IMG/VR virus record: IMGVR_UViG_3300031951_001030
Location: 1-26,800 of that record
Origin: a virus
DNA length: 26,800 nucleotides
Direction: 5' to 3' (one strand)
In this document: piece by piece, positions 8,601-26,800 of the stretch
Layout of the letters: each line of letters starts with the position of its first letter
Numbering within the stretch: the stretch's first letter is position 1
The notes under the pieces: generated by a model
Told to the model about the DNA's origin: nothing
The model's database searches: none
The model's input: the letters and a program-made list of their open reading frames with translations, nothing else
Made by a program: the position numbers and the translations under genes

Positions 8601-8619
8601 TTTTTATTGGAATAGTATT

Positions 8620-9705
8620 ATGACGTTATTACTCTACGAACCATTTGATGAATATGAATTAAATTCAACTGTGTTTAGAACAAAATATGGTATGGGTGGT
8701 AGTAATACTTCTACCTTAACTAGAAATCAATCGGGTATAACGGGTAGACCGTCCGGTTCAATATTTATGATAGGAAATAATATTAGTCCCTACACATCGG
8801 ATTTCTCTTTTCAAAACAGTCATAGAGAAATTATTTGTTATGTGGCGGTATACCCGGTGACAAATGTCTCGACTGCCTTAATTGAATTCCGTAATATGGG
8901 GACGTTATTATTTGGTATAGCTCCTACTCCCAGTACTACTACTATATATAATTCTATTGGTACAATATTCTCGTCAACTGCAACAGTTCGATTCAATTCA
9001 TGGAATTTTCTTGAAATACGTTCGGTAATTAGTAGCGCTAGTCTTGGTAGTGGAAGTGTACAAATAAAAAATAATGGACAGTTATTATTTTCTGCAAGTG
9101 GTTTAAACGTGAATGCAAGTAATGTATTTCCAGCAGTCAATGTGTTTAGAATAGACAATAGAATTAATCCTGATCGAATCATACTTATAGACGATTTACT
9201 AATATTAAATACCTCGGGAGTGTCATTTAATACGTCAATTGGAAATGGTAATTTTTTTATGGCAAGTTATGTTCCATCCGCATCTGGATTTTATACTCAA
9301 ATGACTTCTTCCGGGGCAACGACTGATGCAAATGCAATTAACGAACGTCCAAACGATGGAGACACGAGTTACCTAATTGCATCAGCTTCCGGAATCTTCC
9401 CCCTCAGAGAAACATTTACACTACGACCTGCAAACACCGCATCGGTATTTAGTACAATACCAATATCATCATCAATTGAAGCAGTGTTAAAAAAATCAAT
9501 TGTTAGAGCGGATGGACCGGATTTAATGGGAGTCGAACATTTATTACGTATTAATAGTACCGATTATACCGGAAGTAATGCTATTTCTGCATCTATAACA
9601 TATACCGATCAATTCACTGGATGGGAGATAAATCCTAACACAGGAAACAAATTCAGACCTGCAGAGTTTAATTCATTGGAGGTGGGTTTTAAAAGAGATT
9701 CATAA
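8620..9705 (+). CDS. LamG/concanavalin-like fibre or adhesin protein, paralogue B (361 aa)
   Basis: The start is taken at the ATG at 8620, with TTGGA about nine bases upstream. The open frame reaches back to a TTG at 8581, but that lies inside the previous gene and lacks a ribosome binding site. The 361-aa product begins MTLLLYEPFDEYELN, has the same strand pattern as paralogue A (FNSWNFLEIRSVISS, then VQIKNNGQLLFSASGLN) and closes with GWEINPNTGN...FNSLEVGFK, matching the NPNTG...IGF close of paralogue A. Both probably bind surface glycans. The stop overlaps the next start as TAATG. Confidence 0.75.
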   Translation: MTLLLYEPFDEYELNSTVFRTKYGMGGSNTSTLTRNQSGITGRPSGSIFMIGNNISPYTSDFSFQNSHREIICYVAVYPVTNVSTALIEFRNMGTLLFGIAPTPSTTTIYNSIGTIFSSTATVRFNSWNFLEIRSVISSASLGSGSVQIKNNGQLLFSASGLNVNASNVFPAVNVFRIDNRINPDRIILIDDLLILNTSGVSFNTSIGNGNFFMASYVPSASGFYTQMTSSGATTDANAINERPNDGDTSYLIASASGIFPLRETFTLRPANTASVFSTIPISSSIEAVLKKSIVRADGPDLMGVEHLLRINSTDYTGSNAISASITYTDQFTGWEINPNTGNKFRPAEFNSLEVGFKRDS

Positions 9706-10130
9706 TGTCCACTGATTTACGAGTTACCCAAGACTTAACCACTACATTAATAGGATCCGGTAGTTCTGACGTTAGAATTACCCAAGATTTAACTACCGTA
9801 CTAATAGGATCCGGTAGTTCTGACGTTAGAATTACCCAAGACCTAATAACACTAATAGTCGGGGTAGCTGAAAGTAGTTCTTTAACAAGAGTGTCCTCTG
9901 TATTTGATAATATTTTATATACGAACACTGGTTCCGTAGTAAATGTCTCCTCAGTGTTTGATAATATTCTATACACAACCACGGGGTCAAACGTAAACGT
10001 ATCATCGGTGTTTGATAATATCCTATACACGAATACCGGGTCAAACGTAAACGTGTCTTCAGTATTTTTAAATATAATTATATCAAACGTCACAAGTAGA
10101 CCATTTGCATATGCATACATTATTGATTAG
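9705..10130 (+). CDS. Small repeat protein made of seven ~18-residue units
   Basis: A 141-aa protein that is almost entirely repeat. Three units of type DVRITQDLTTVLIGSGSS are followed by four of type NVSSVFDNILYTNTGS. The two types align as V-x-[IV]-[TS]-x-x-[LF]-x-x-[IV]-L-[IY], so all seven probably descend from one unit. Period 18 with alternating hydrophobic residues suits a beta-solenoid or stacked hairpins. I recall phage fibre-region proteins with RVTQ/RVSQ...VEVL repeats that look related. It sits between adhesin paralogues and the long fibre and shares a TAATG junction with the former. A spacer or minor fibre component is likely; function is otherwise unknown. Confidence 0.75.
   Translation: MSTDLRVTQDLTTTLIGSGSSDVRITQDLTTVLIGSGSSDVRITQDLITLIVGVAESSSLTRVSSVFDNILYTNTGSVVNVSSVFDNILYTTTGSNVNVSSVFDNILYTNTGSNVNVSSVFLNIIISNVTSRPFAYAYIID
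9714..9875 (+). repeat. Three 54-bp tandem coding repeats (type A)
   Basis: Units begin at 9714, 9768 and 9822, exactly 54 bases apart. The stretch TAATAGGATCCGGTAGTTCT is identical at 9748 and 9802, showing a recent duplication; the third unit has diverged. The repeat keeps frame and encodes the DVRITQDL units. Confidence 0.85.
9891..10106 (+). repeat. Four 54-bp tandem coding repeats (type B)
   Basis: Units begin at 9891, 9945, 9999 and 10053, again 54 bases apart, each opening with GTxTCxTCxGT and TTTGATAATAT (lost in the last unit). Third-position differences show these are older than the type-A pair. They encode the VSSVFDNILY units. Confidence 0.85.
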
Positions 10131-10141
10131 AGAATAACACT

Positions 10142-12967
10142 ATGGCAGGAATTATTGTAAAAAGTAACCCAACATCAGGTTCCACACCAGATCCACAATA
10201 TTTGGCAGTCGGAGAATTAGCATTTAATTCTTACGATGGCCGGCTATTCTCTAAAAAACATAATGGTGAATTGGTATTACTGAATTACAAGCCAAATCCA
10301 ACTGCCTCTATTGCGGACACAGCAAATTCTTCTTCATACGCATTAACTGCCTCGTATGCGTTGAATGGCGGTGGCGGTGGAGGTGGTCAAGCAATTTATA
10401 CGAAATATGACCCATTTGCTCCACCGACAAATCCGTCGGTCTTAAATGATGAGTTTACCGTCAGTGGTAGTGGAATTCCATCGGGATGGACTTTGGCAAC
10501 TGGCAGTGGAACAGTTACAGTATTGAACGGACGGTGTATCATAACTCCACTGACTGGTTCGGGGGACAACCCTACTGCCATAGAAAAAGTTTTACCTACT
10601 GGAGGTTTTACAGTACTTACTAGAATGGAACTTTTAGGGAAAAATACATATCATAATTCTGCAATATACTTGAGAGATACGGTTAGCGGAAAAGTTACAG
10701 TCTTCAGAATTTTTTGTGGACCGAGTAATGATATTCGACTATTAAATACACAAGTTTTAAGATATAATAGTTTTACAAGTTTCAATTCAATTTCATATGA
10801 AGGTGGTGCATTTTCACCGACAGTATTTCATAGAATTGATTTTGATGGAACTACATTATACTTTGCACGTTCGTTTGATGGTGTTGAATATGATATATTA
10901 TTTAGTGAACCTGCTTCATCATGGTTTAGTACTCAACTCCCAAACCGCGTTGGTATCTGTGCATCAACGATAAATACTTCAGTTGGCTGTAAAGCAGTAT
11001 TTGATTTTTTCAGACATTCTTCCACACCATTTGCAGACCTCGGTCGAGAAGTTGGGGTTGGTTCAGATGGGAATGGTTCTACACAATCTAATGCAATTTC
11101 ATCTAGTTGGGCATCCAGTTCAATCAGCGCAAGTTATGCAACAACTGCATTAACGGCATCGTTTGCTTTGAATGGTGGTGGAGGTGGTGCACCAATTAAC
11201 ACGGGTTCGTTTGCAACCACCGGTTCAAATATATTCATTGGAAATCAGACAATTACGGGTTCGTTAACATTGTCTAGTAGTTTACCGGTAGAACTACGAG
11301 TTATCGGTGACACAGAAATTACCGGATCGTTAAGAACTTCTGGATTAAGCGTAGTCAGCGGTTCACTGGCCATATCCAGCCCAAATACATTAGTATTGGG
11401 TAGTCAAATATTTTATCCGCAATCAAGTAATGGGTTTAGTGTTAATGAAAACTTTGACCCAAGTAATGATTCCAATCAAGTGGCATACCACTTTACTACA
11501 GGTACTTCGGCAAAAACCAGTGTAGTGTTTGGTTTAGCAAGAACAAATAGATTTACCAGCTGGTTCGGGGTTACTGGGGATGTTTCAAATAACCAATTTG
11601 TTATTGGTTCAGAATTTGCCGGAACTGATTTTGAATTTAGAAGTAATCTTGGTATACGTCCCGTTCAATTACAAGGTGGTAACTTATTGGCACGAATTAC
11701 CAGAACGGGTCACGTATTAGCAAATGCATTTACCAGTTCTTTAGTAAATCAAGTTGGATTTTTAGGAACGAGTAGTTGGGCACGAAATAGTGCAACAGCA
11801 AGTACAGCAACTTCTGCTGCCACGGCTAGTCTATTACTGGGTTCAATCGAAAGTGCGTCATATGCAGCAACTGCTAGTGTATTATTAGGGTCTGTTCAAA
11901 GTGCGTCATATGCAGTAACGGCATCATTTGCATTAAATGGCGGGACTGGGGGAGGAAGTAGTGTTAGTGCAAGTTGGGCGTCGAGTTCTATTAGTGCAAG
12001 TTTTGCAACAAGTGCGTCATTTGCAAACACAGCAATAACATCAAGTTATGCACTAACATCGTTATCTGGAATTACGGTTAATCTAACTGGAAGTACTGTC
12101 GGTGTGAATGTATATAGGTCGGCAAGTTTAACATTAACAGATAACAATTTGAACTACATTCCGTTTACTACGGAACGTAGAGATGATTTGAATTTCTGGG
12201 ATATAAGTGACCCAACAAAATTAATAGTACCAAATGGGGCAGACGGGTGGTATACAATATCGGGGTATTGTCACTGGAACGCCAACACTGGCTTAGGTAG
12301 AAGAATATCGATTGTAGTAGATGGGACCGAAACGGTTGGGTATAGTTCTACTGTTGCATATTTTGAACACAACGACCCGGGTACACATGCGGGCGCAGTG
12401 GTATATCTAACGTCGGGTAGTTTTGTTCAACTAGGTGTTAGTGAAAATGACGGTGACAACGTTCCTATAAATGCAAGTGCAAGTATTGGAATGGTGCGAA
12501 TTGGGTCATCTACAAACGTTCCTTCTGCAAGTTTTGCAACAACGGCTTCATATGCATTAAATAGTAATCAGTCACAAACTAGTTTGAGTAGAGGGACGGT
12601 TTCGGCAAATGTTGCAAGTATATCACCAAATCAAAATTACACCGGAAGTATTTCTCTTGGAAAAACGTTTATGTTACTTTCTACCCAAGTAAATACCGAC
12701 GTGCGCCTTAGATTATATGGTTCTCAATCATACGTAAACAGTGATTTAACTCGACCAATCGGAACTGACCCTGCAAATAATTCTGGAATCATAACCGATT
12801 TGATTCTAAGCGGTTCTCCGGCGTTATATAATTATACATTGTCCCCTATAGCAAACGGGGCAAACATGGATCCAGTGACGGTATCAACTATATATTATAC
12901 AGTAACCAATCTGTCTGGAACTACCACTGACATTTCCATGTCATTCAATCGAATTGTGTTAGAATAA
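10142..12967 (+). CDS. Long modular tail fibre (941 aa) with ConA-like, C1q-like and tip domains
   Basis: A 941-aa fibre. The N-terminal cap (residues 1-50, YLAVGELAFNSYDGRLFSKK) is the GELA-N-DG-L-K motif recurrent at the attachment end of phage fibres. Shaft modules rich in SYA-TASYALNGG lie near 57-84, 317-349, 543-640 and 793-806. Between them are a concanavalin-like domain (about 90-300, FDGTTLYFARSFDGVEYD), ITGSL strands and an adhesin domain (about 360-545). Residues about 650-790 resemble a C1q/TNF-like jelly roll (IPNGADGWYTISGYCHW pattern). The last 130 residues (RLRLYGSQSYVNSDL..., YTLSPIANGANM...) resemble a recurrent fibre-tip domain, the likely receptor contact. This is probably the main long fibre. 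The ribosome binding site is a modest GAG. Confidence 0.85.
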   Translation: MAGIIVKSNPTSGSTPDPQYLAVGELAFNSYDGRLFSKKHNGELVLLNYKPNPTASIADTANSSSYALTASYALNGGGGGGGQAIYTKYDPFAPPTNPSVLNDEFTVSGSGIPSGWTLATGSGTVTVLNGRCIITPLTGSGDNPTAIEKVLPTGGFTVLTRMELLGKNTYHNSAIYLRDTVSGKVTVFRIFCGPSNDIRLLNTQVLRYNSFTSFNSISYEGGAFSPTVFHRIDFDGTTLYFARSFDGVEYDILFSEPASSWFSTQLPNRVGICASTINTSVGCKAVFDFFRHSSTPFADLGREVGVGSDGNGSTQSNAISSSWASSSISASYATTALTASFALNGGGGGAPINTGSFATTGSNIFIGNQTITGSLTLSSSLPVELRVIGDTEITGSLRTSGLSVVSGSLAISSPNTLVLGSQIFYPQSSNGFSVNENFDPSNDSNQVAYHFTTGTSAKTSVVFGLARTNRFTSWFGVTGDVSNNQFVIGSEFAGTDFEFRSNLGIRPVQLQGGNLLARITRTGHVLANAFTSSLVNQVGFLGTSSWARNSATASTATSAATASLLLGSIESASYAATASVLLGSVQSASYAVTASFALNGGTGGGSSVSASWASSSISASFATSASFANTAITSSYALTSLSGITVNLTGSTVGVNVYRSASLTLTDNNLNYIPFTTERRDDLNFWDISDPTKLIVPNGADGWYTISGYCHWNANTGLGRRISIVVDGTETVGYSSTVAYFEHNDPGTHAGAVVYLTSGSFVQLGVSENDGDNVPINASASIGMVRIGSSTNVPSASFATTASYALNSNQSQTSLSRGTVSANVASISPNQNYTGSISLGKTFMLLSTQVNTDVRLRLYGSQSYVNSDLTRPIGTDPANNSGIITDLILSGSPALYNYTLSPIANGANMDPVTVSTIYYTVTNLSGTTTDISMSFNRIVLE
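11773..12060 (+). repeat. Cluster of Ala/Ser/Tyr shaft modules in the 941-aa fibre
   Basis: A run of related units (SSWARNSATASTATSAATAS, LGSIESASYAATAS, LGSVQSASYAVTASFALNGG, SASWASSSISASFATSASFA), partly duplicated at base level (GTGCGTCATATGCAG occurs twice about 51 bases apart). Further copies lie at about 10310-10392, 11092-11190 and 12520-12562. They look like a flexible or coiled shaft that can grow or shrink by slippage or recombination. Confidence 0.7.
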
Positions 12968-15071: not shown

Positions 15072-18000
15072 ATGAAAGAAGAAAACAATCCGTACGATTC
15101 ACCCGATTACGCATTAAGTGGGTTCACTGGAGCCTTTAAGAAAGTACCACCGCCGGAAGATAAGGAGGTACTTACAAAACGTTTTGCAGACTTGGACCCA
15201 ATAGAAGAGGAAAAGTCCAGTACGGAACGTGTGCGTAGATATTATAAAAGACATCCAGAAAAAGTTAGAAAATATTTACGTGATACGCAAGATGATAGAG
15301 TCCAACGGAATCGTGATCGTGCAAAAGCAGTAAAAAAACACGGAAAAGCTAAAATGAAAAACCATGACGTTCATCATCCAGATGGTCCTGGCAACGGTTG
15401 GCGTTTAGCAAAAAAAGATCATGGTCGAGATAAAAAAGACGGAAGTCCGCCGGAACCATCGACCAAGAAATCTACACCGTCAAAAAAACCCGAAAAGAAA
15501 ACTACTGCGTCTACACCAAAAAAATCAACTAAAAAGTCTACACCAAAGAAACCATCGGCGGTAAAACGTCGTACACCGTCGAAGCAAGATGCCATCAAGA
15601 AAAGTATTGCTACATTTGTTCTGTATGCAATGAAACAGTTGGAAATTACTGACAGACCAACATTTGTAATTATTGAACCTACGAAAGACATGATGAGTTT
15701 GGGTCATTATAATCCAAAACTAAATAAGGTTGCAGTAGTCGTAAAAAATCGTTTATTAGCAGACATTTTACGTACGCTTGCACATGAATTGGTACATGTC
15801 AAACAAATGCAAAACGGGCAACTAACAACCCCATCAGTAGATACTGCAACGGGTTCGCCAATTGAAAATGAGGCAAATGCACTTGCAGGAGTATTGATGC
15901 GTAATTATGCAAAGATGAATAAGAACATCTTCCTTTCCGAAGGATTAATCGTGGAAGGAGGTGCTGCAGGACATTTAGCACACCCGTTTGAAGACGAAGA
16001 TCTTTCCTTTGCTGACATGAAAGAAATGATTAATCGTGGATTGTTAGGTGGATTAGACCAAGAAGCACCTGTCACCGAAAAGTTAGATGGGCAAAATATT
16101 GCATTTACCGTGCGTGATGGGCAAATTGTATTTGCACGTAACAAAAGTCATGTAAAAAATCGTGGAAAGAATGCATTAGATGTGGCAGGTATTCGTCAAA
16201 TGTTTTCTGGGCGTGGCGGAATTGAAAAGGCATTTACTGGTGCCGCAGAAGATTTGCAGGCAGCAGTAGAAAGAATGACCCCTGAACAAATTCAGCAAAT
16301 GTTTGGAAGTGGTTCTAAGTTCATGAGTTTGGAAGTTATCCTCCCAGATACACAAAATGTCATTCCGTATGGGAAAAGTGTCTTGGTCATGCATGGAACT
16401 ATCGAATATGATGAAGACGGAAATGAAATTGGTCGGTCAACAACCGATGGAAAGGAATTTGCTGATGCAGTTACTGCGGTTGGAGCAGAACAACAAAAAA
16501 CATTTGGTATTAGCGGTCCAAAAACTATTGTATTCAGTGATGCCGAAACAGAGACGTATCAACAGAAAGCTGAAGACTATTCTGGTCGGTTAGATAGAGT
16601 TGCTCAAGAATTTGAATTAGATGACAAAGCTACCCTAGCAGATTATCGTCGTGCTTGGTGGGAACGTGAACTTACTCAACAAATGCAATCTAAGGGAATC
16701 GAACTATCCGAGAAGGAATTTAATGGGTTAGTAGATCGTTGGACAGACGGTAGTAAAAAATTTGGGGTGAAAGATATTGAGAACGACGAAACCAAGAAGT
16801 GGTTTAGAGAGTTTGAGAAAAATGAATTAGCACAAAAACAAAAGGCAATGATTAAGCCGATAGAAACTACTTTCTTACAAGTCGGAACTGACTCATTGCG
16901 GAGAGTTACCAACTTCTTATCATCGAATAATCCAGAGGCCAGTGCCCAGCTCAAACGGGACGTGCTGGAAGCCATTAAAGCAATCAGAGATAGTGACCAA
17001 CCAGATAAGATTGCTAAGCTACAGAGGGAATTAGAACGTCTGGAGGGTATGGGAATTGATAACATCGTCCCATCGGAAGGTGTGGTATTTATTTATAACG
17101 GGAAACCCTATAAGTTTACCGGACAATTTGCTCCTATAAATCAAATTACGGGAACATTTAAGTTTGGAATGGCTCCAAAAGAATCGGAAGAACCAAAAAC
17201 ACCTGAACTAACTGATATAAAAGATGTGGCGTCTAAATTAGAATTTAAACCAACCACAAAACAAGCAAAACAATATGCACAAGGCAATGACATAGGAGAT
17301 GCCTCAGACTTAGAAGGTATGAAACCGATGTCGTTTGCAAAAAATACCGTTGACGGATTGAAAGTTGTTACGGTGACAGCTGATGGTAAAGAAACTGAAA
17401 ATGTGGCAGAAGTAGGCGACATTATTATGTCTGGACCGTCCGGCGAGCAATATGTGGTCAAGGCAGGTAAATTTGATAAATTGTATGCTGATGGACCAAA
17501 CGGAACAAAAATACCTGAACAATCTCCTCGACAAGTAGCGGCATATACGGGAACTGAAGACATTACATTTACGGCTCCGTGGGGTCAATCAATGGTGATG
17601 AAGCCAGGTGATTATTTAGTGAAAGATGGTGATGGATATTATCGTGTTGCAAAACAAGAATACGAACAAACATACAATCCACCGGGTACCACGGAAACAG
17701 AACCTACGGCAGCAGAACCAACGGAACCCTCAGCAGAAACTCCACCAAAACGAACTATTGCAATCTTTACGGGTCGATTCCAACCGTTCCATGCCGGTCA
17801 TTATAGTATTTATGAAGGATTGGTGGAGAAATTTGGGAAAGAGAATGTATATATAGCTTCTAGCGGTAAGACGGATGCTATTAAATCACCATTTGAGTTC
17901 AGGGACAGACAAGAAATCATGACCCGAATGTTTGATATTCCGGAAGAGATGATTGTTCAAGTTAAAAATCCATATGCACCTGTGGAAATTCTAGAAAAAG

Positions 18001-19268
18001 TACCTGAAGATACTACGTATGTAACCGCAGTCAGTCAAAAGGACTCGGAACGTTTAAGTGGCGGTAAATACTTTAGAAATTTTGATGATGTACCGGAAGA
18101 AGAACGTAAAGGATTTAAAGACCAAGGATATTTTATTGTTGCACCAGAAATGCAATTGTCAATTGACGGAAAAAATATCAGTGGAACACAACTTCGTGCC
18201 GTAATGGGTGACCCACAAATTACTGACCGTGCAAAACAAGAAATTTTCACAAAAGTGTATGGAAAGTTCGACCAAAAAATCTTTGATAAGATTGTAAAAA
18301 CAACAACGGAATCGGAAGAAGCCAGAAAACTAACTGCTCAGCACGGTGAACCAACAAAACGTGGTAAGAAAAAACCAGATGAAAAAGCAGTAAAACGTGC
18401 CAAGTCGGTATTGCGACAACGAGTTGAAAACCCCGACACTGGTAGAAAAATTTTAGTTGCTACAGCATTAACGTATCCAAAAGAACATTCGGCTAGAAAA
18501 GCAGCAGAAGCATTGGTGCAAGCTGCAATGCAACAGAATGAGACAATGTTGATGGAAAGTAAATCTAGTTCTGAGAATTTAAAAGTCTATATATATGTGA
18601 AAGAACATACAGAAGAAGAATTGGAACATGAAATTGACGAGTATTTCAAGAACGAACGAACGTTAAAAGCATTTCCAAATCTAGCAGATTCTTCATATGA
18701 ATTAATTGATATGATTAAAAAGGCACCTGCCGAAGTGTTAGATATAAACGAATTAAAAGCATTAGAAAACAGTGACGTTGGTGATATTTTAAGTGGGAAA
18801 AATAAAACGCAAATTCTAAAACAAATGATTGGTAATAAGAAGGATGTTACGGGATTGTTAACAGATATTAAAGCAAAGAAACCAATTTCCATGCCAGTTG
18901 TTATTAAACATGTAAGTGGCTATTATTTGTTGGGTGGAAATACACGATTATCGGTATTAGCATCACTGGGACATACGATGCCGGTAAAAGTACTCGGGAG
19001 AGCAGCACCATTCGATGCACCTATCTCCGTATATCCTGCTAAAAAAGATGGAAGTGCGTCAAAGAAAAAAGTAAACGCAAATACATTATTTAAATCGTTA
19101 TTAAAAATGCGTATTACAAATCCAGAAACGGGTAACGAAATTAAAATTGACACGGCAATGGATTATAACAAAGAACATCCTGCACACAGAGCAGCAATGG
19201 CTGTTATTCGTCAAAGAATGCGTGGATTATCAAATAGAGCAGGTATACCAAAAAACAGACAAGACTAA
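15072..19268 (+). CDS. 1398-aa multidomain protein: HNH-like motif, basic tail, zincin, ligase-fold nucleotidyltransferase, NMNAT-like and ParB/Srx-like domains
   Basis: Domains in order: a basic N-terminus with H98-DVHHPDG105, resembling part of an HNH motif; a Lys/Pro/Thr tail (124-172); a zincin with H238-ELVH242 and likely third ligand E265 or E267; a nucleotidyltransferase of the ligase superfamily with K337-LDG340 (motif I), MSLEVILP, E669-GVVF (motif IV) and K681 in YKFTGQFAP (motif V). I recall the latter region as DUF6267 in phages. Two GD-(I/Y)...Y-V beta modules follow (about 750-878), then an NMNAT/cytidylyltransferase domain with G901-RFQPFHAGH910 and I1036-SGTQLR1042. Next is a ParB/Srx-like segment (about 1250-1305, G1288-GNTRL) and two NPxTG modules (1117-1155, 1347-1385). 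The ATG lacks a clear ribosome binding site. Family names are from memory; biological role unknown. Confidence 0.85.
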   Translation: MKEENNPYDSPDYALSGFTGAFKKVPPPEDKEVLTKRFADLDPIEEEKSSTERVRRYYKRHPEKVRKYLRDTQDDRVQRNRDRAKAVKKHGKAKMKNHDVHHPDGPGNGWRLAKKDHGRDKKDGSPPEPSTKKSTPSKKPEKKTTASTPKKSTKKSTPKKPSAVKRRTPSKQDAIKKSIATFVLYAMKQLEITDRPTFVIIEPTKDMMSLGHYNPKLNKVAVVVKNRLLADILRTLAHELVHVKQMQNGQLTTPSVDTATGSPIENEANALAGVLMRNYAKMNKNIFLSEGLIVEGGAAGHLAHPFEDEDLSFADMKEMINRGLLGGLDQEAPVTEKLDGQNIAFTVRDGQIVFARNKSHVKNRGKNALDVAGIRQMFSGRGGIEKAFTGAAEDLQAAVERMTPEQIQQMFGSGSKFMSLEVILPDTQNVIPYGKSVLVMHGTIEYDEDGNEIGRSTTDGKEFADAVTAVGAEQQKTFGISGPKTIVFSDAETETYQQKAEDYSGRLDRVAQEFELDDKATLADYRRAWWERELTQQMQSKGIELSEKEFNGLVDRWTDGSKKFGVKDIENDETKKWFREFEKNELAQKQKAMIKPIETTFLQVGTDSLRRVTNFLSSNNPEASAQLKRDVLEAIKAIRDSDQPDKIAKLQRELERLEGMGIDNIVPSEGVVFIYNGKPYKFTGQFAPINQITGTFKFGMAPKESEEPKTPELTDIKDVASKLEFKPTTKQAKQYAQGNDIGDASDLEGMKPMSFAKNTVDGLKVVTVTADGKETENVAEVGDIIMSGPSGEQYVVKAGKFDKLYADGPNGTKIPEQSPRQVAAYTGTEDITFTAPWGQSMVMKPGDYLVKDGDGYYRVAKQEYEQTYNPPGTTETEPTAAEPTEPSAETPPKRTIAIFTGRFQPFHAGHYSIYEGLVEKFGKENVYIASSGKTDAIKSPFEFRDRQEIMTRMFDIPEEMIVQVKNPYAPVEILEKVPEDTTYVTAVSQKDSERLSGGKYFRNFDDVPEEERKGFKDQGYFIVAPEMQLSIDGKNISGTQLRAVMGDPQITDRAKQEIFTKVYGKFDQKIFDKIVKTTTESEEARKLTAQHGEPTKRGKKKPDEKAVKRAKSVLRQRVENPDTGRKILVATALTYPKEHSARKAAEALVQAAMQQNETMLMESKSSSENLKVYIYVKEHTEEELEHEIDEYFKNERTLKAFPNLADSSYELIDMIKKAPAEVLDINELKALENSDVGDILSGKNKTQILKQMIGNKKDVTGLLTDIKAKKPISMPVVIKHVSGYYLLGGNTRLSVLASLGHTMPVKVLGRAAPFDAPISVYPAKKDGSASKKKVNANTLFKSLLKMRITNPETGNEIKIDTAMDYNKEHPAHRAAMAVIRQRMRGLSNRAGIPKNRQD

Positions 19269-19868: not shown

Positions 19869-20511
19869 AGCAACTCGTAAACTATTGAAAGAATTTGTCA
19901 AGTTGTCACAACTATCTCAAATAGTGGTGGCTGTGGTGCTAACAATCTTTGCATTTAGTATGGGACAATGTGAGAGTGATTCTAAATTAAATAAATTTAG
20001 AGCAGAATTTTCGATGTTACAAGAACAGGCCGAAAAAACAAAACAATTTGCCGATTCTGCAAAAACCGAAGTGGTAAGATTGTCAAATGAATCGAAGCAA
20101 AAAGATGCTACTATCACAAAATTGTCGTTAAAAGTAGAACTTGGAAACCAAAGTCGTGAACGACTACGGGGAGAACTTAGCGTACTGGAAGATAGTCTAG
20201 AAAGTGCAATGGATACCGCACAGGTCGTTCAAATACAAGAAGGTATTATTTACAACTTAAAAGACCAATTAGAAACTGCGGAATGTACTATTACGACTCA
20301 GCGTGAAATAATTACAGCACAACAATTTAAAATTACAAAATTGGATAGTGCAATAGCATTAACAACTCAACGCGGTGATAGTTTACAAAACGTAGTTAAT
20401 AACTTAATTAATATGCCAAAACCACCCCGCCAATGGATTAGTAAGAAAACTGCTGGAATTGTTGCATTCACCGCAGGTGTGATTGTTGGGGATAAATTGG
20501 CAAGGAGATAA
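19849..20511 (+). CDS. Membrane-anchored coiled-coil protein, possible spanin-like lysis protein (220 aa)
   Basis: A 220-aa protein with a basic N-terminal helix, a hydrophobic segment (about 22-39, LSQIVVAVVLTIFAFSMG) ending at C41, a long coiled-coil rod (about 44-185), and a second short hydrophobic segment (201-214) before a basic KLARR end. The layout recalls Rz-type inner-membrane spanins, or single-chain u-spanins with both ends in membranes. However, the residues before C41 (SMGQ) do not form a proper lipobox, so an acyl anchor is doubtful. Its start lies 20 bases inside the previous gene with GAGG nine bases upstream. Alternatives are a membrane-anchoring or tail tape-like accessory protein. 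It directly precedes terL. Confidence 0.65.
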   Translation: MTEKIIEATRKLLKEFVKLSQLSQIVVAVVLTIFAFSMGQCESDSKLNKFRAEFSMLQEQAEKTKQFADSAKTEVVRLSNESKQKDATITKLSLKVELGNQSRERLRGELSVLEDSLESAMDTAQVVQIQEGIIYNLKDQLETAECTITTQREIITAQQFKITKLDSAIALTTQRGDSLQNVVNNLINMPKPPRQWISKKTAGIVAFTAGVIVGDKLARR

Positions 20512-20512
20512 G

Positions 20513-22093
20513 ATGGGACAGGAGTTAAAGGAGTTAATTAAGCAGGAATATAAAAAATGTGCAATAAGTCCAGAATATTTTCTATCAAAATATTCGTTCA
20601 TACAACACCCGGTACGAGGTCGGGTGTTGTTTGATTTATATCATTATCAAAAAAATTCTTTAAAAGATTTTCAACAACATGATTATAATATTGTACTGAA
20701 GGGGCGTCAGATTGGTATTTCTACGTTAGTGGCAGGATATTCTCTGTGGTTATTGTTGTTTCACCGAGATAAGAATATTCTTGTTATTGCAACTAAACAA
20801 GAAACAGCAAAGAACTTGGTCACAAAAGTAAGATTCATGCATCAAAATCTTCCCGTATGGTTGCGTGGACAATGTATAACAGATAATAAACTCTCGTTAC
20901 AATTTTCAAACGGGTCACAGATTAAAGCCGTGGCAAGTAGTAAGGATGCAGGACGTTCTGAAGCATTGTCATTGTTAATTCTTGACGAAGCAGCATTCAT
21001 TGATGATGCAGACATTATTTGGACAGCCGCATCAAGTACGTTATCTACAGGCGGTCAAGCAATTCTTCTCTCTACGCCAAATGGTATTGGTAATTTCTTC
21101 CACAAAATGTGGCAACAAGCGGAGAATAAGGAAAACGGATTCAATCCCATTCTCTTAGACTGGCGAGTACACCCAGAACGTGATCAAGCTTGGCGTGACC
21201 GTCAGACAGAACTCATGGGTGAAATGCAAGCATCACAGGAACACGATGCCTCATTTATCTTTTCTGGTAATACCGTGGTCCCACCAGATATTATTGAATT
21301 TTATAAAAAGACGTATGTACAAGAACCTATTTCTAAGCAAGGATTTGATGGAAATTTGTGGGTATGGGAATACCCTGTAGCAGGTAAATCTTATGTTGTT
21401 TGTGCTGACGTTGCCCGAGGCGATGGTGAAGATTATTCTACCTTCCATGTCATCGATGTAGAAAAATCTATGCAAGTTGCAGAATATAAAGGTAAGGTGG
21501 AGACAAAACAATTTGGTAATATGTTAGTGTCTATTGCCACCGAATACAACGATGCACTATTAATTCCCGATAACAGTTCTATCGGATGGAATTGCATTCA
21601 ACAAATTATTGACCGTGGATATCGAAATCTCTTTTATATGTCAAGAGATTTACAATACGTTGATGTCGAACATCAAATAACAAATAGACATTATCGGGAT
21701 GAACGAAACATGGTTCCAGGCTTTATGATTTCCCAACGCACTCGTCCACTCATCATTGCACGACTCAAAGAGTATATGTTAGATAATTCGTTTACGATTC
21801 GGTCTGGTCGTATGATGGCAGAATTAGAAACGTTTATTTGGAAGAACGGTCGTCCAGAGGCATTGCAAGGATATAATGACGACTTGGTATTGGCACTGTG
21901 TATTGGATTATGGGTCCGTGATACAGCACTTCGTCTACGACAGGAAGGAATCGAATTAACAAAAATGGCATTAGATAAAACGTCATACAATAGTATTCCT
22001 CTTGCAATCAAGCAAGGTGGTCTTGATCATAATCCATATGAAATGAAAATTGGTAACAATCAGAGCGAAGATATTCGTTGGCTTATAGGATAG
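20513..22093 (+). CDS. terL: Terminase large subunit (T4 gp17-like)
   Basis: A 526-aa DNA-packaging motor: N-terminal ATPase and C-terminal RNase-H-like nuclease. The ATPase has a deviant Walker A, K63-GRQIGIST71, in which the usual lysine of GKT/S is Ile and a Lys precedes the loop, as in some terminases. Walker B is L157-DEA160 and motif III is LLSTPNGIGN. The nuclease has D299 (VCADVARG), D353 (LIPDNS) and D456/D457 (YNDDLV), the acidic triad that cuts concatemers. It is shorter than T4 gp17 (610 aa). The start is the ATG at 20513 with AAGGAG five bases upstream; a longer frame from TTG 20483 is inside the previous gene. It docks on the portal encoded downstream. Confidence 0.95.
   Translation: MGQELKELIKQEYKKCAISPEYFLSKYSFIQHPVRGRVLFDLYHYQKNSLKDFQQHDYNIVLKGRQIGISTLVAGYSLWLLLFHRDKNILVIATKQETAKNLVTKVRFMHQNLPVWLRGQCITDNKLSLQFSNGSQIKAVASSKDAGRSEALSLLILDEAAFIDDADIIWTAASSTLSTGGQAILLSTPNGIGNFFHKMWQQAENKENGFNPILLDWRVHPERDQAWRDRQTELMGEMQASQEHDASFIFSGNTVVPPDIIEFYKKTYVQEPISKQGFDGNLWVWEYPVAGKSYVVCADVARGDGEDYSTFHVIDVEKSMQVAEYKGKVETKQFGNMLVSIATEYNDALLIPDNSSIGWNCIQQIIDRGYRNLFYMSRDLQYVDVEHQITNRHYRDERNMVPGFMISQRTRPLIIARLKEYMLDNSFTIRSGRMMAELETFIWKNGRPEALQGYNDDLVLALCIGLWVRDTALRLRQEGIELTKMALDKTSYNSIPLAIKQGGLDHNPYEMKIGNNQSEDIRWLIG
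20602..20630 (+). other. GC-rich 10-bp hairpin inside the 5' end of terL
   Basis: ACAACACCCG (20602-20611) and CGGGTGTTGT (20621-20630) form a perfect 10-bp stem around a 9-base loop, followed by TTGATTTA. It begins 89 bases into terL, encoding part of QHPVRGRVLFD. The G/C-rich core stands out in AT-rich DNA. It could be an attenuator, RNA-processing site or packaging signal. One such inverted repeat is not unlikely by chance in 27 kb. Confidence 0.4.
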
Positions 22094-22162: not shown

Positions 22163-22489
22163 ATGAAACGTAGTGAACTGGAAGAAATTATTAAAGAAGA
22201 AATTTATAAAATAATAAATGAAATTCGATTCATGCGCGATGAATCGTTGGATGAAAAAACTGTTCCTCCGTACACTAAAGAAACGCGTAAAAATCGTCGT
22301 CGGATGTCACCTGCACAGATTGCAAAGAGAGACGAGATTGGTAAAAAGATGAAAGGTAATTCTAAAACGGTGGCACGATTTAAGAAAAACTACGGTGACG
22401 AATGGGAAGATTACCTGTGGGCCTCAGCGTCTAGTATAGCACTCGGCGGCGGATTTAAAAAGAAAGACGGTTCATCTGATGATGAATAA
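22163..22489 (+). CDS. Small charged helical phage protein (108 aa)
   Basis: A 108-aa protein with GGAG seven bases upstream. The N-terminus (MKRSELEEIIKEEIYKIINE) is an amphipathic helix. The rest, SPAQIAKRDEIGKKMKGNSK followed by VARFKKNYGDEWEDYLWASA, matches a short module I recall from several T4-like aquatic phages (SP-QI-RR-DEIG, KKYG-EW-YLWA). The tail is Gly/Lys/Asp-rich. No catalytic residues are recognisable. It is the first gene of the cluster between terminase and portal. INE at the end of the helix fits a T4 gp21-type cleavage pattern, so an internal head protein is possible. Confidence 0.75.
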   Translation: MKRSELEEIIKEEIYKIINEIRFMRDESLDEKTVPPYTKETRKNRRRMSPAQIAKRDEIGKKMKGNSKTVARFKKNYGDEWEDYLWASASSIALGGGFKKKDGSSDDE

Positions 22490-22537
22490 AATATTACATA
22501 GAATAGTTAAAAAGCTTAAACCAACGGGAGTACAACA

Positions 22538-23206
22538 ATGATTAGAATGATGGGATTAGTAGACCTACGTGGAATCGGAGCCCCGGTTGGTTCACGTACT
22601 ATCGAAGAAGACCTTACCGGCAATCAAAAAAAATTAGACGTTGATAAAGATGGGAAAATTGAAGGCGAAGATTTAGCAAAACTACGGACTAAGAAAGAAA
22701 ATTTGAACGAAGAAAATCCAGACAATCCAGACGTTGTTGATGACCACGAAGGTCAGATGGCAAAAGCAGATTTGATGGCAATTAATAAGCATTCAAAAGA
22801 AATTTATAACATGTTGGGTGACGATGAAGAACTAGAGGGATGGGTTCAGTCAAAAATCACCAAGGCAGCGGAATACATGAATGCAGTATATAACAACATG
22901 AATTATGAGAAGAATAAACCAGGTTCATTGGGTGATGGGGAAGGAACACCTGCAGATGCCACCGATGGTATGATGCCAGAAGGTACGCATTTAAACCCAT
23001 CCAAAGACCACAAAGATCCACACAAAGATCCACACCTAGCTCATGAAAGTATTTGTGAAGGTGCAGATTGTATGGATGAAGTTGCTCCTGAAGGATGGGA
23101 AGGTACCGTCAAAGCAATGAAGAAATATAAGAAAATTGACAATCCGTGGGCGCTTGCTTATTACATGAAGTCCAAGGGATATAAATCACATAAAAAGGAC
23201 AAGTAA
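22538..23206 (+). CDS. Modular small protein with EF-hand-like loop and two recurrent phage modules (222 aa)
   Basis: A 222-aa acidic protein with GGGAG seven bases before the ATG. Residues 34-45 (DVDKDGKIEGED) fit a calcium-binding EF-hand or dockerin-like loop, with D at positions 1, 3 and 5, G at 6, I at 8 and D instead of E at 12. Residues about 70-125 (DDHEGQMAKADL...WVQSKITKAAEYMNAVY) and the C-terminus (APEGWEGTVKAMKKYKKI, then NPWALAYYMKSKGYKSHKK) are two modules I recall in many T4-like marine phage proteins, unnamed. A His/Asp-rich linker (HKDPHKDPHLAHE) with a 12-base direct repeat joins them. Context suggests a head or core component; molecular function is unknown. Confidence 0.8.
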   Translation: MIRMMGLVDLRGIGAPVGSRTIEEDLTGNQKKLDVDKDGKIEGEDLAKLRTKKENLNEENPDNPDVVDDHEGQMAKADLMAINKHSKEIYNMLGDDEELEGWVQSKITKAAEYMNAVYNNMNYEKNKPGSLGDGEGTPADATDGMMPEGTHLNPSKDHKDPHKDPHLAHESICEGADCMDEVAPEGWEGTVKAMKKYKKIDNPWALAYYMKSKGYKSHKKDK

Positions 23207-23207
23207 C

Positions 23208-23570
23208 ATGGAACCGATTGCAAAGTTTTTAGGAACATTGATGTCCAGTAGAACGCAAGCACATGTGTTTCATTTACAAACACCGTCATTTGCCGCACAT
23301 AAAGCATTGAATGAATATTATGATGAGATTGTTGATTTAATTGATTCCTACGCAGAAATGGCCCAAGGTCGATATGGAATTATTCGCGGATATGTTATGT
23401 CGAATCAGATTTTTGAAGATGATTCGGTGTTAAAATATTTTGCAGGATTGCAGAAGTTTGTTGATGAAATTCGCACACAATTACCTCAAGACGGAGAACT
23501 CAACAACACCGTGGATGAAATTTCTGGTTTAATTAGTTCAACTATTTATAAATTAAAATTTTTAAAGTAA
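23208..23570 (+). CDS. Mini Dps/ferritin-like helical protein (120 aa)
   Basis: A 120-aa all-helical protein, one base after the preceding stop, with AAAAGGA upstream. H19, H31, D46 and E50 repeat exactly the spacing of the E. coli Dps ferroxidase ligands H51, H63, D78 and E82 (gaps 12, 15, 4); the position of D67 is N35. Flanking sequence (LQTPSFAAHKALNEYYDEIV) resembles the Dps H-x-x-H helix region. I recall similar phage proteins as DUF5856, a name from memory. At 120 aa it is shorter than Dps (about 167) and lacks a Lys-rich DNA-binding tail. It could bind iron and protect DNA, or be a Dps-fold virion part. Fold likely; activity untested. Confidence 0.75.
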   Translation: MEPIAKFLGTLMSSRTQAHVFHLQTPSFAAHKALNEYYDEIVDLIDSYAEMAQGRYGIIRGYVMSNQIFEDDSVLKYFAGLQKFVDEIRTQLPQDGELNNTVDEISGLISSTIYKLKFLK

Positions 23571-23571
23571 T

Positions 23572-23907
23572 ATGAAATACATTGATTTTTACGAAAATAT
23601 TTGTCGATGTGATGAAGGATGCGGGTGTGAAGAAACTACCAACGAATACACGGGGGATACGTTTTCTGCGCCGCAACCTGACTTTGACACATATTCAACG
23701 TATAATAATGACCCACATAAAAAGAAAAAGTTAGAAGAATTTTCTGCTTTACTTGAAAAAAATACACCCACGAGTCCCGACAAGTGGGCAAAAGCAAAAG
23801 CAGCCGCACGTGCAAAATTTGATGTGTATCCTTCTGCTTATGCAAATTTGTGGGCTGCAAAGAAATATAAGAGTATGGGCGGTGGATGGAAGAAGGGTAA
23901 AAAATGA
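23572..23907 (+). CDS. Small protein with Cys-rich N-terminus and KFDVYPSAYAN module (111 aa)
   Basis: A 111-aa protein starting one base after the previous stop; no clear ribosome binding site, so re-initiation is likely. The N-terminus has a cysteine cluster (C12-R-C14, C18-G-C20 in ICRCDEGCGCEE) that could bind metal. The C-terminal 45 residues (SPDKWAKAKAAARAKFDVYP, then SAYANLWAAKKYKSMGGGWKK) are a compact basic module I recall in many phage and algal-virus small proteins, function unknown. The strongly basic C-terminus suggests nucleic-acid contact. The stop overlaps the next start as ATGA. Confidence 0.75.
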   Translation: MKYIDFYENICRCDEGCGCEETTNEYTGDTFSAPQPDFDTYSTYNNDPHKKKKLEEFSALLEKNTPTSPDKWAKAKAAARAKFDVYPSAYANLWAAKKYKSMGGGWKKGKK

Positions 23908-24230
23908 TAAGTCTTTCGGATATTTTGGAAGAAGTCGTTGATGAACTAGACGAAAAGTATAAGACCAAAGGTAATTTGGGAAAATGGCTTCGTCAAAAAT
24001 GGGTGGATATTTCACGAAAAGATAAAAGTGGAAAGCATCCACCATGTGGGGCATCTGCTGGAAAAAAAGAACGAAAAGGTGGCTCTGCTAAATATCCAAA
24101 ATGTCGTCCTGCCCGTTCTGCAGCAGCAATGAGTAAAGGTGAAAAACGGTCAGCAGTTACTCGGAAACGTAAAGCAGGAAATCCTGGTGGTAAACCTACG
24201 ATGGTGTCAACGTTCAAAAAGGATAATTAA
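23904..24230 (+). CDS. Basic small protein with KWVDI...YPKCRP module (DUF5872-like, 108 aa)
   Basis: A 108-aa protein whose start overlaps the previous stop by ATGA. Residues 1-12 (MISLSDILEEVV) form an acidic-hydrophobic leader like those of two downstream genes. The remainder (WLRQKWVDISRKDKSGKHPP, then YPKCRPARSAAAMSKGEKRS) is a Lys/Arg-rich module I recall as DUF5872, seen in phages and algal viruses. Two cysteines (one in PPCGAS, one in PKCRP) may bind metal. The high positive charge behind a removable leader would suit a DNA-condensing internal head protein, but that is inference. Confidence 0.8.
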   Translation: MISLSDILEEVVDELDEKYKTKGNLGKWLRQKWVDISRKDKSGKHPPCGASAGKKERKGGSAKYPKCRPARSAAAMSKGEKRSAVTRKRKAGNPGGKPTMVSTFKKDN

Positions 24231-24231
24231 T

Positions 24232-24648
24232 ATGGATAATATTACTGAAGCTTGTTGGGAAGGATATAGACAAGTTGGTATGAAGGATAAAGGTGGTAAG
24301 ATGGTTCCCAACTGCGTTCCTATCAACGAAAATGACATTTATGATGGTGAGTTTTGTCCAGCATGTTTAGCTAAATATATCTTAGAACGTAAGGATATGT
24401 TGGAAGAAGCAGAATATCAAGGTCGCAAAGTTCCCCTTGGAAAACCAATGCGCGGCGATGTTGGAAAATTCAAAGTATATGTTAAAGACCCAAAAACTGG
24501 TAATATCAAGAAAGTAAACTTCGGTGACAAAAAGATGCGTATCAAGAAGAATATTCCTGGTCGCCGTAAGTCATTTAGAGCACGTCACAACTGTGCAAAT
24601 CCTGGCCCAAGAACTAAAGCACGGTATTGGAGTTGCCGTAAGTGGTGA
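24232..24648 (+). CDS. Small protein with CWxGYxxVGMK and FRARHNC...YWSCRKW modules (138 aa)
   Basis: The start is the ATG at 24232 with AAGGA eight bases upstream; the frame extends back to 24139, but only inside the preceding gene. The N-terminus ACWEGYRQVGMKDKGGKMVP and the central CPAC motif (C41, C44) are followed by a C-terminal block, KPMRGDVGKFKVYVKDPKTG, then RRKSFRARHNC and YWSCRKW. I recall both blocks as very common in T4-like marine phages, sometimes fused to other domains. Conserved cysteines and basic residues suggest a metal-stabilised nucleic-acid or capsid-lattice contact. Function unknown. It overlaps the next gene. Confidence 0.8.
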   Translation: MDNITEACWEGYRQVGMKDKGGKMVPNCVPINENDIYDGEFCPACLAKYILERKDMLEEAEYQGRKVPLGKPMRGDVGKFKVYVKDPKTGNIKKVNFGDKKMRIKKNIPGRRKSFRARHNCANPGPRTKARYWSCRKW

Positions 24649-25058: not shown

Positions 25059-25390
25059 TTCGTTTAACAGATTTATTGGTAGAGAATGCAGAAAACCGCA
25101 TCAATTTGATGAAAATTCAAACCATTATGGAAAAACTCTATCCAGAATTAACCGGTGAACAAAGTAAAAAGTTGATGGAATTGTGCACAGAGATGCACAT
25201 GATGGCTTCTCAATTAAACACAATTCCGTACATTAGAACGGAAACTGCTTTAGTTGAATGGAAACTTTTGGTCACTGCATTCAAGACAAAAGTAAATGAA
25301 CTAAAAGAAGAAGTGGTCAGCGTATGTGAAAATAAAAAAATAGATTGCACTACAGTAGTTAAAGCATTAGATGAAGTATTAACATACTAA
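25055..25390 (+). CDS. Small helical protein before the portal gene (111 aa)
   Basis: A 111-aa protein with AAGGAG eight bases upstream and an ATGA overlap with the gene before. The leader MIRLTDLLVE ends in L-V-E, a match to the (L/I)-x-E cleavage rule of the T4 prohead protease. The rest is three or four amphipathic helices without recognisable motif; two cysteines (C99 and C106) lie in the last helix. Its position directly before the portal gene, where T4 has the sheath and tube genes, suggests a head role. No family recognised. Confidence 0.7.
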   Translation: MIRLTDLLVENAENRINLMKIQTIMEKLYPELTGEQSKKLMELCTEMHMMASQLNTIPYIRTETALVEWKLLVTAFKTKVNELKEEVVSVCENKKIDCTTVVKALDEVLTY

Positions 25391-25400
25391 GTGAGGTTAT

Positions 25401-26800
25401 ATGGCAGATACGAGTATTTTTAGTAGATTAAAAAAACTTTTTTCTACTAACACAATTGTACGAAATGTCGGTGGCAAAAAACTAAGAATTGCAGACACGG
25501 ACCAAATTCAGTCATTCGTAAACCGTCGAGGGGTTGACCGATACCACCGGGTTTATCAGTCAGGGACGGGTGGATACGGGTCACACCACGGCCGTTACGA
25601 GGCTGCTGCAGCATTTCAAGGTGCAAGACTGCAACTATTCCGTGATTATGATATGATGGACAATGACCCTATTGTTTCTTCTATATTAGATATTTATGCA
25701 GATGAATCTACGGTTAAGGACGAATTTAATCGTATTTTAACTATTAAAACCGACGATACTCGTATTCAAGAAATTTTACATAATTTGTTTTATGATATTT
25801 TAAATGTGGAATTTAATCTCTGGCCGTGGATTCGTAACATGGCAAAATACGGAGATTTCTTTTTATATTTAGATATTCACGATGAGTATGGCATTGTCAA
25901 TGCCATACCGCTTTCCGTATATGAAACCATCCGTGTGGAAGGTGAAGAACCTGGAAACCCATTTTCTGTACGATTTAGTATTCAGAACGACTTTTTGGCA
26001 TTAGGTAAAACAGAGTTCGATAATTACGAAATTGCACATTTTCGATTGCTGGCCGATACCAACTTCTTACCGTATGGCAAAGCAATGATTGAAAACGGCC
26101 GCCGTGTTTGGAAACAATTGCAGTTAATGGAAGATGCAATGTTAATTCATCGTATTATGCGAGCACCAGATAAACGTAAGTTTAGAATTGACATTGGAAA
26201 TATTCCACCCGCCGAAGTAGAAACGTACATGCAACGAATTATCGACCGAATGAAAAAAGTTCCATTGGTTGATCAAAAAACGGGTGATTATAATCTTCGG
26301 TATAATATGCAGAATATTACAGAAGACTTTTATCTCCCAGTGCGTGGGAAGGATAGTGGTACGGATATTGAAACCATGCAAGGATTACAATTTAATGCTA
26401 TTGAAGACATTGAATATCTTCGTAAGAAACTTCTTGCGGCATTTAAAGTACCGAAATCTTTCATAGGATATGATGAAGATGTAAATGGAAAGGCAACGTT
26501 GGCTGCACAAGACGTTCGATTTGCACGCACGATTGAACGCATTCAACGTATTATGATTTCGGAATTAACGAAGATTGCAATTATTCATTTGTATGTACAG
26601 GGGTTTACGGATGAAAATCTTATCAACTTTGAACTTTCACTAACAAATCCTTCCACGTTATACGAACAAGAAAAAATTAATATCTGGAAAGAAAAGTTTG
26701 CACTTGCTCAGCAAATGACCGGCGGACAAACCGTATTATTTTCTCAAGATTGGGTATATAATAATATTTTAGAAATGTCTGACGAAGAAATTGCAAAAGA
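25401..26800 (+). CDS. Portal vertex protein (T4 gp20-like), cut by window end
   Basis: The frame runs from the ATG at 25401 (GAGG four bases upstream) to the window end without a stop: 466 codons, so the C-terminus is missing (T4 gp20 is 524 aa). Recognisable gp20 blocks: YEAAAAFQGARLQLFRDYD with NDPIVSSILDIYADE after it (clip/wing start), HFRLLADTNFLPYGKAMIEN, HRIMRAPDKRKFRIDIGNIP, and the stem/crown region LRKKLLAAFKVPKSFIGYDE followed by ATLAAQDVRFARTIERIQ. It would form the dodecameric portal through which terminase packages DNA and to which the tail attaches. Small head genes precede it rather than tail sheath and tube as in T4. Confidence 0.95.
   Translation, partial: MADTSIFSRLKKLFSTNTIVRNVGGKKLRIADTDQIQSFVNRRGVDRYHRVYQSGTGGYGSHHGRYEAAAAFQGARLQLFRDYDMMDNDPIVSSILDIYADESTVKDEFNRILTIKTDDTRIQEILHNLFYDILNVEFNLWPWIRNMAKYGDFFLYLDIHDEYGIVNAIPLSVYETIRVEGEEPGNPFSVRFSIQNDFLALGKTEFDNYEIAHFRLLADTNFLPYGKAMIENGRRVWKQLQLMEDAMLIHRIMRAPDKRKFRIDIGNIPPAEVETYMQRIIDRMKKVPLVDQKTGDYNLRYNMQNITEDFYLPVRGKDSGTDIETMQGLQFNAIEDIEYLRKKLLAAFKVPKSFIGYDEDVNGKATLAAQDVRFARTIERIQRIMISELTKIAIIHLYVQGFTDENLINFELSLTNPSTLYEQEKINIWKEKFALAQQMTGGQTVLFSQDWVYNNILEMSDEEIAK

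Follow-up and report, generated by a model that had tools for sequence, protein, structure and literature searches.

Phage polyvalent proteins, as described in the part of PMC5512222 available here, combine several catalytic domains in one chain, include a zincin-like metallopeptidase and are encoded near the terminase and portal genes. Our study deals with a phage protein of 1398 amino acids whose make-up is reminiscent of theirs. It is encoded by an ATG-started open reading frame (ORF) at 15072..19268 on the + strand of IMG/VR virus record IMGVR_UViG_3300031951_001030, whose positions 1 to 26,800, the whole 26,800-nucleotide stretch analysed, are called here the window. The counterpart of the zincin-like metallopeptidase, a HELVH region, scores under the Pfam cut-off in the window protein, and the combination at the centre of this work, an RNA-ligase-fold domain with a KxDG motif joined to a HIGH-superfamily adenylyltransferase (the partner domain), is not met in that same part of the polyvalent-protein account. 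The first domain resembles the RNA ligases of Naegleria, fungi (Trl1) and T4 (Rnl1 and Rnl2) in its fold, as predicted, and in carrying motifs I, III, IV and V; unlike them, it has motifs III and IV set apart by a large helical insert, falls under the cut-off of Pfam RNA_ligase PF09414, finds no PDB match by sequence profile and is fused to an adenylyltransferase. The partner domain shares with NadM/NMNAT and PPAT enzymes the HIGH-superfamily fold and the GRFQPFHxGH and ISxTxxR motifs, but differs in that no Nudix domain was found, in that a K-D segment (SQKDSERL here) is shared among partners, and in that some of its relatives are without the first His of HxGH. NAD chemistry may be common to the pair and to phage NAD reconstitution (NARP1); unlike NARP1, the window-type pair has a ligase, and NadV, the usual phage partner of NadM, is absent from most records that carry the pair. 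In the open-licence literature, a scope that most subscription papers fall outside, we found no paper on the pair, on 'DUF6267', or on 'cytitidyltransferase' together with 'cyanophage'. The pair that the RNA-ligase-fold enzyme makes with the HIGH adenylyltransferase is real and conserved: it consists of two known folds, forms a new family and is a repeatedly rearranged combination.

The fusion is no assembly artefact, because the same protein is present on three other IMG/VR contigs with 99.9-100% identity, including one of 145,753 bases (L004, the same as G001), and relatives of similar length occur on five further loci (L005-L009; best-segment identity 61-69%). A preliminary description of this DNA, made from its letters without database searches, had placed two nucleotidyltransferase folds in this one chain. 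Both are predicted by our models with conserved catalytic residues, and the positions it gave for K337-LDG, E669-GVVF and K681 are correct. The ligase-fold domain comprises residues 288-700 (15933..17171; all features given in this text lie on the + strand). It contains motif I, EKLDGQN (residues 336-342, 16077..16097), in which K337 is the predicted AMP-accepting lysine; an ARNKS segment at the position of motif Ia with R356 (16134..16148); motif III, EVILPDTQNVIPY, with E421 (16332..16370); motif IV, EGVVF (residues 669-673, 17076..17090), with E669; and motif V, KFTG (residues 681-684, 17112..17123), with K681. None of 96 distinct full-length domains deviates at K337, D339, G340, R356, E421, E669, G670 or K681, and 92 of them keep K358. 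Structure prediction, proposed earlier as a check, gave a ligase fold for residues 285-705 (AlphaFold, alignment of 62 sequences, mean predicted local distance difference test, pLDDT, 90.4) and a HIGH fold for residues 884-1118 (pLDDT 91.5).

The ligase model was compared with known structures by re-aligning 900 PDB chains with VIA-align, for which the tool quotes a background best Z of 7-8. The top 25 rows were all RNA or tRNA ligases, coming from a handful of proteins, with Z between 8.1 and 9.3. They include Naegleria RNA ligase (9.3, root-mean-square deviation 3.7, 183 aligned), fungal Trl1 (9.2), T4 Rnl1 (8.7), T4 Rnl2 (8.2) and TbREL1 (8.1), followed by DNA ligases (best 7.6), archaeal RNA ligases at about 7 and mRNA guanylyltransferases at about 5.5. 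In a BFVD structure search, two viral 'RNA ligase domain' proteins were among the matches with E <0.001, and fused viral proteins labelled only 'Cytidyltransferase-like' also matched the ligase domain (A0A6J5MCV5, E 4.2e-38). Judged by the model comparison, the motifs and the BFVD matches, the domain is most likely of the RNA-ligase type. In sequence the family is far from known ligases, since a profile search of the PDB with this domain found no ligase; PHROGs gave nothing for it at E up to 0.01, and the ligase part of every protein scanned was without a confident Pfam or PHROGs match.

The partner domain, of NMNAT/PPAT fold, occupies residues 890-1110 (17739..18401) and carries the GRFQPFHAGH motif (residues 901-910, 17772..17801), the SQKDSERL segment (18033..18056) and the ISGTQLR motif with R1042 (residues 1036-1042, 18177..18197). 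H910, the last His of HxGH, is kept in all 48 non-redundant partners and the Arg of ISGTQLR in 47 of them, and K990 of the SQKDSERL segment is invariant over 33 aligned partner domains. H907, the first His of HxGH, is replaced in 13 of the 48, by G or A in ten and by T in three. The preliminary description had held that loss of the KxDG or HxGH residues across homologues would speak against it; the KxDG residues are kept throughout, and because H907 differs in those 13 partners, such a loss is seen in part for HxGH. Pfam CTP_transf_like matches residues 898-980 above its cut-off (5.8e-6), and PHROGs labels the domain 'cytidyltransferase' (phrog_395, 1.1e-12). The model fits NadM (Z 12.5), archaeal NMNAT (11.9), PPAT (11.7) and NaMNAT (11.4) about equally well. 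The earlier term 'NMNAT-like' thus holds for the fold and does not fix the substrate, because NMNAT, NaMNAT and PPAT structures score alike; the partner could still have NMNAT activity on its own. By sequence profile, NMNATs come closest to the window-type partners (PDB 1f9a, 8.4e-8) and PPATs to those of a second group, the L014-L025 type (3nd5, 2.5e-6); hhalign shows kinship between the two profiles (probability 95.8, E 7.5e-9). Kin of the PPAT-like subfamily also occurs as a stand-alone HIGH adenylyltransferase in Prevotella phage Lak-C1, under genetic code 15 (L120, 4986-5606). HIGH adenylyltransferase genes of phage 121Q (L130, 4010-4543), S-B64, S-H35 and S-WAM2 carry or overlap annotations as ribonucleotide reductase subunits, which are probably errors.

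The linkage of the two domains was followed across relatives of the ligase domain, of which there are at least 568 in IMG/VR (of 600 candidate stretches; the best 80 of the stretches matched were taken further), 8 in GTDB contigs and 3 in the 50,697 records of a phage collection. The 103 distinct ligase domains comprise 62 in ORFs uncut by a contig end and 41 in cut ORFs. Nearly all intact relatives (59 of 62) have the partner in the same ORF, with the ligase first in 24 and the partner first in 35. The remaining three are L028, where an adjacent gene encodes the partner; L065, interrupted by a stop codon and with a partner fragment upstream; and L115, a 269-residue piece whose record contains Ns. 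Among the 41 cut ORFs the partner was seen in 24, and the 17 without it are all cut on their 5' side. The partner profiles were built from the same loci as this count, and Pfam CTP_transf_like served as an independent check. It was found at E <0.01 in the window protein and in L010, L026, L027, L048, L056, L063, L076, L083 and L112, lying under the curated cut-off in L076, L083 and L112; it was not found at that level in L014, L021, L023, L111 and L116, where the partners are PPAT-like. The natural fusion in L076 is compact, its ORF having 623 residues. In a maximum-likelihood tree of 57 ligase domains, some of whose long branches are uncertain, the ligase-first order needs three changes, two of them forced by well-supported branches, so the pair has outlasted at least two rearrangements of its order. 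Many other phages have the two parts fused or as neighbours, which makes a common task for them probable. A ligase-first pair (L116, CP070664.1, a WOR-3 metagenome-assembled chromosome, 7968-10379; L114) also lies in a record called a bacterial chromosome. Of nine neighbouring ORFs scanned, two gave PHROGs matches, one to a GtrB-like glycosyltransferase and the other to an unknown family, and none is a structural phage gene; this pair could be a cellular copy or a degraded prophage copy.

Some relatives carry additional modules. In L021 and L023 a HAD domain is fused that matches phrog_415, 'polynucleotide kinase' (2e-8 and 6.4e-9). A P-loop motif lies within the first 120 residues of 9 of the 69 distinct ORFs with an intact start side, and in L063 this region matches AAA_33 (3.6e-9) and Zeta_toxin (2.9e-7). 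By their sequences, the HAD and P-loop modules would possibly fit the healing of ends ahead of sealing.

The preliminary description had pointed to related ligase-like phage proteins under the name DUF6267 (PF19782). This pointer was useful for the comparison that follows, with one correction: the window protein itself gives no PF19782 match, even with E allowed up to 10. PF19782 was detected in none of the 7 records with a window-type pair (as a positive control, it was found in 7 of 11 phage records). It matches a 400-residue gene of S-PRM1 at 5.2e-140. By tblastn against the same 50,697 phage records, DUF6267-like genes were found in 468 and a related adenylyltransferase in 535, mostly cyanophages; in the annotations viewed, the former are nameless and the latter named by fold only. 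In S-PRM1, the DUF6267 gene lies directly upstream of, and overlaps, a 'cytitidyltransferase' gene, and the same is seen in S-CAM9 and S-CAM3. A single base separates the DUF6267 and adenylyltransferase genes in S-RIM12, one gene lies between them in DLP_6 and two in HTVC008M, and in S-PM2 both are part of one 591-residue ORF. Among ten sampled DUF6267 records, namely those common to the two sets of 60 matches listed, nine have the two genes on the same strand and at most ~1.3 kb apart. A search for DUF6267 proteins with the fusion, which had been suggested, has therefore found one in S-PM2 and close neighbours in most of the sample.

Over ~400 residues, DUF6267 and the window domain have the same succession of motifs, an N-terminal HLxHxxED followed by KxDG, EG-V and K, with the difference that DUF6267 has a conserved Asp where the window family has the motif III Glu. 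The evidence for their kinship consists of this motif order, one full-length, co-linear alignment of low confidence, and a BFVD match of the window ligase domain to the S-PM2 fusion (A0A0M6VVW4, E 7.2e-5). The profile comparison of the two was not significant (probability ~1%), and in a tblastn search with the window partner domain the cyanophage partner was absent from the matches listed. DUF6267 is thus a probable distant cousin of the window ligase family, from which we keep it separate. Overlap between a short KxDG gene and one for a HIGH adenylyltransferase is also seen in two further phages, Xanthomonas phage X1 (L117, 2128-5477) and Stenotrophomonas phage Moby (L119, 2441-5558). There the two belong to a cassette of four genes: a polymerase-beta-like gene, which lies two genes upstream of the KxDG gene, a possible PD-(D/E)XK gene, the KxDG gene and the HIGH adenylyltransferase gene. 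The first three were assigned by eye, and Pfam gave no convincing match in this place.

The reading that we favour, with a probability of roughly 45%, is that the window ORF encodes a polyvalent-type phage protein whose ATP-dependent RNA-ligase-type enzyme and HIGH adenylyltransferase share a nucleic-acid-end pathway. It is based on the predicted folds, the invariant catalytic residues, the near-obligate linkage in both orders and the possible end-healing modules; we infer from these the ATP donor, the RNA substrate, the sequential action of the two domains and the role in counter-defence. In such a pathway, K337 would accept AMP from ATP and hand it to a 5'-phosphate end, most likely of RNA, and the ligase would then seal the nick or leave the end capped. 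The partner domain would move AMP from ATP onto a second 5'-phosphate group, which might belong to a small nucleotide such as NMN (nicotinamide mononucleotide) or to a nucleic-acid end, and its product would supply or finish the end that the ligase handles. The likely use would be the mending of RNA or DNA cut by host defence. A more specific version, which we regard as doubtful and which is drawn by analogy, is that both domains act on the same bond: the HIGH adenylyltransferase would write an A(5')pp(5') link at a 5'-phosphate end, after the model of NMN + ATP -> NAD, or would run in reverse to remove or exchange the link, and the ligase-fold domain would read that end and seal or cap it.

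It is important to consider the results that weigh against a shared nucleic-acid-end pathway. DNA ligases come near the RNA ligases in VIA-align Z (Pmar-Lig 7.6, an Aquifex enzyme 7.3, ASFV 6.8, T4 5.7), the top Z of ~9 is little above the background, and TbREL1 is less than 1 Z from the best DNA ligase; for these reasons a preference for RNA over DNA is tentative. In the PDB, Foldseek found nothing at E <0.001 for the ligase model (the best was T4 Rnl1 at 0.014), PF09414 reached 13.8 bits (E 0.064) against a gathering cut-off of 27 bits, and a ligase C-terminal domain was not seen, although no separate search for one was made. As for the additional modules, sequence searches gave no clear PDB relative for the L063 kinase and no PDB match for the L021 HAD, and the role of kinase and HAD could lie in NAD metabolism, in the manner of NadR, and not in healing ends. 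An AAA_33 kinase is present in the L087 record and was not detected in the window-type contigs G001-G003, so it is outside the set of the window phage as far as the contigs show. Adjacency is also not obligatory for DUF6267 and its partner, which are separated by ~76 kb in S-SM2 and by 78 kb in Sf-CH8 (PV340853), the one exception among the ten sampled records; the listed positions suggest distant genes in ACG-2014f and S-CAM7 too, these positions coming from different records of one phage.

Several other explanations turn on NAD. If the pair served NAD recycling, genes for an NAD ligase or for NadV should accompany it, and we scanned the records for them, bearing in mind that the contigs may be incomplete. 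NadV (PF04095, NAPRTase) and the NAD-ligase adenylation domain PF01653 (DNA_ligase_aden) were each found in one of the 7 records with the pair, in both cases LR756500 (L028), and NadV in 3 of 11 records with related genes. In G001, which encodes the identical protein, there is an ATP DNA ligase (PF01068, present in 3 of the 7) and neither PF01653 nor NadV nor a PF09414 RNA ligase above cut-off, the last being found in two of the 7. The preliminary description had suggested a self-recycling enzyme, in which NMN released by an NAD-using ligase is converted back to NAD by the partner. The two chemistries would close a cycle, and LR756500 does have a separate NAD-ligase domain together with NadV. 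We now consider this idea highly improbable: NAD-ligase domain and NadV are mostly missing from the pair records, the fold is of the RNA-ligase type, the window protein gives no PF01653 match even with E allowed up to 10, and the NAD specificity of ligases is ascribed, in the part of PMC9503650 available here, to an added Ia domain. NAD salvage, the second earlier suggestion, is weakened by the same lack of NadV in 6 of 7 pair records and 8 of 11 related ones, and keeps some ground in the records where NadV is present. Another reading is that the chain bundles separate counter-defence functions, with the partner as a true NMNAT that restores NAD once the host has depleted it, the ligase repairing cut tRNA, and the two sharing a chain only through their use early in infection. 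NMNATs are indeed the best PDB sequence relatives of the partner domain, its best matches in isolate phages without the pair are mostly NadM-type proteins, and unrelated injected effectors are bundled in polyvalent proteins according to the part of PMC5512222 at hand. We nevertheless judge this unlikely, while taking it seriously, since NadM phages are reported, in that part of PMC9503650, always to carry NadV; moreover, linkage to one ligase family in both orders exceeds what bundling would predict, and GPHH-type HxGH variants occur in 10 of the 48 partners. That partner-made NAD feeds an NAD-dependent 2'-phosphotransferase (KptA/Tpt1) after a Trl1-type ligation is suggested by fungal Trl1 being among the best structural matches and by KptA, NadV and the pair being neighbouring genes in LR756500; with KptA above its curated cut-off in only one of 11 records that carry either the pair or related genes, we consider it very unlikely.

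The last of the earlier alternatives, that the pair attaches a nucleotide to a target (capping RNA 5' ends or AMPylating a protein) and performs no ligation, is rated here as rather improbable. The domain ends soon after motif V and its fold is common to the covalent nucleotidyltransferases of the capping type, but RNA ligases outscore guanylyltransferases, and the HAD fused in L021 and L023 is of the polynucleotide-kinase type. The chain might also have a structural or scaffolding role, its enzyme domains having decayed, in keeping with its gene near terminase and portal, its long linkers, and the comparison with L047, in which the C-terminal part (65% identity) is better conserved than the ligase domain (53%). 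This is hard to believe given eight ligase-motif residues that are invariant, and the comparisons with L005 and L009 go the other way: the ligase/adenylyltransferase domains are 85/78% and 71/70% identical, the metallopeptidase-like region 45 and 47% and the C-terminal part 58 and 54%.

The rest of the chain holds several parts, of which the metallopeptidase-like region, the PGDYG domain, the ParB-like stretch and the repeated C-terminal motif were absent from the preliminary description. A basic region with an HDVHHP motif (residues 50-121, 15219..15434) lies in a segment, residues 40-125, that is 74-82% identical in the four relatives compared. The metallopeptidase-like region (residues 170-290, 15579..15941), with HELVH at 238-242, matches Peptidase_M78 at 8.9e-4 and the metallo-protease family phrog_87 at 6.8e-4. 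The PGDYG domain (PF14083, residues 777-868, 17400..17675) matches Pfam above its cut-off (1e-7) and, with a one-sequence profile, turned up in 5 of 69 distinct ORFs among the relatives; near-copies of the window protein account for two of these. The C-terminal motif NPxTGxxIxVxTA... is present twice, as NPDTGRKILVATALTY... (18420..18518) and NPETGNEIKIDTAMDY... (19110..19199), in a part where no Pfam match reaches its cut-off, and a ParB/sulfiredoxin-like stretch (GGNTRLS, 18897..18995) was assigned by eye only.

The N-termini of the relatives were also compared. A prohead-protease site before the ligase domain, read from the (I/L)xE-GG of many relatives, was dropped as a general rule because a large group of relatives has M for E (LLLMGG). 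Many relatives begin like MDKLTEFLVKPFLTEG, with a short, hydrophobic N-terminus that ends in Glu. A head-targeting-like pattern, devised after viewing these N-termini, fits 17 of 56 distinct first-Met N-termini of relatives and 47 of 992 in other ORFs; at internal Met, the figures are 12 of 1287 in relatives and 25 of 4969 in other ORFs. T4 internal proteins are packaged via a conserved targeting sequence, according to the part of PMC3012670 available here. Packaging of window-type proteins into the virion via such an N-terminus would be only a lead, since the start of the window protein does not fit the pattern and the pattern was devised afterwards. N-termini of a similar kind, hydrophobic and with a closing Glu (MIRLTDLLVE, MISLSDILEE), are found on small genes from terminase to portal at 22163-25390 of the window; they might serve in head targeting.

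The neighbourhood includes the terminase large subunit (20483..22093) and a portal protein that runs off the window (25401..26798), together with RusA-like, primase and SbcD-SbcC genes and, by eye, repetitive tail- or fibre-like proteins. The SbcD-like and SbcC-like subunits (phrog_100 and phrog_77) are joined in a single 1054-residue ORF at 1912-5076. The isolates nearest by terminase are Microcystis phage Mel-JY01 (52%), which has the pair, and the Flavobacterium phages immuto (51.5%), which are not among the records matched by the window protein.

The fused proteins tie the DUF6267-like and adenylyltransferase genes together, pointing to one pathway in which a ligase that uses ATP would work with an adenylyltransferase. 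If the same-bond version were true, it would mean a new RNA end chemistry common to window-type phages and to cyanophages, where DUF6267 and 'cytitidyltransferase' are separate genes. If the favoured reading is true, it would add an RNA-ligase-fold family that is common in IMG/VR (at least 568 stretches) and has no confident Pfam or PHROGs match, and it would connect nucleic-acid repair with nucleotide-cofactor chemistry in a new way.

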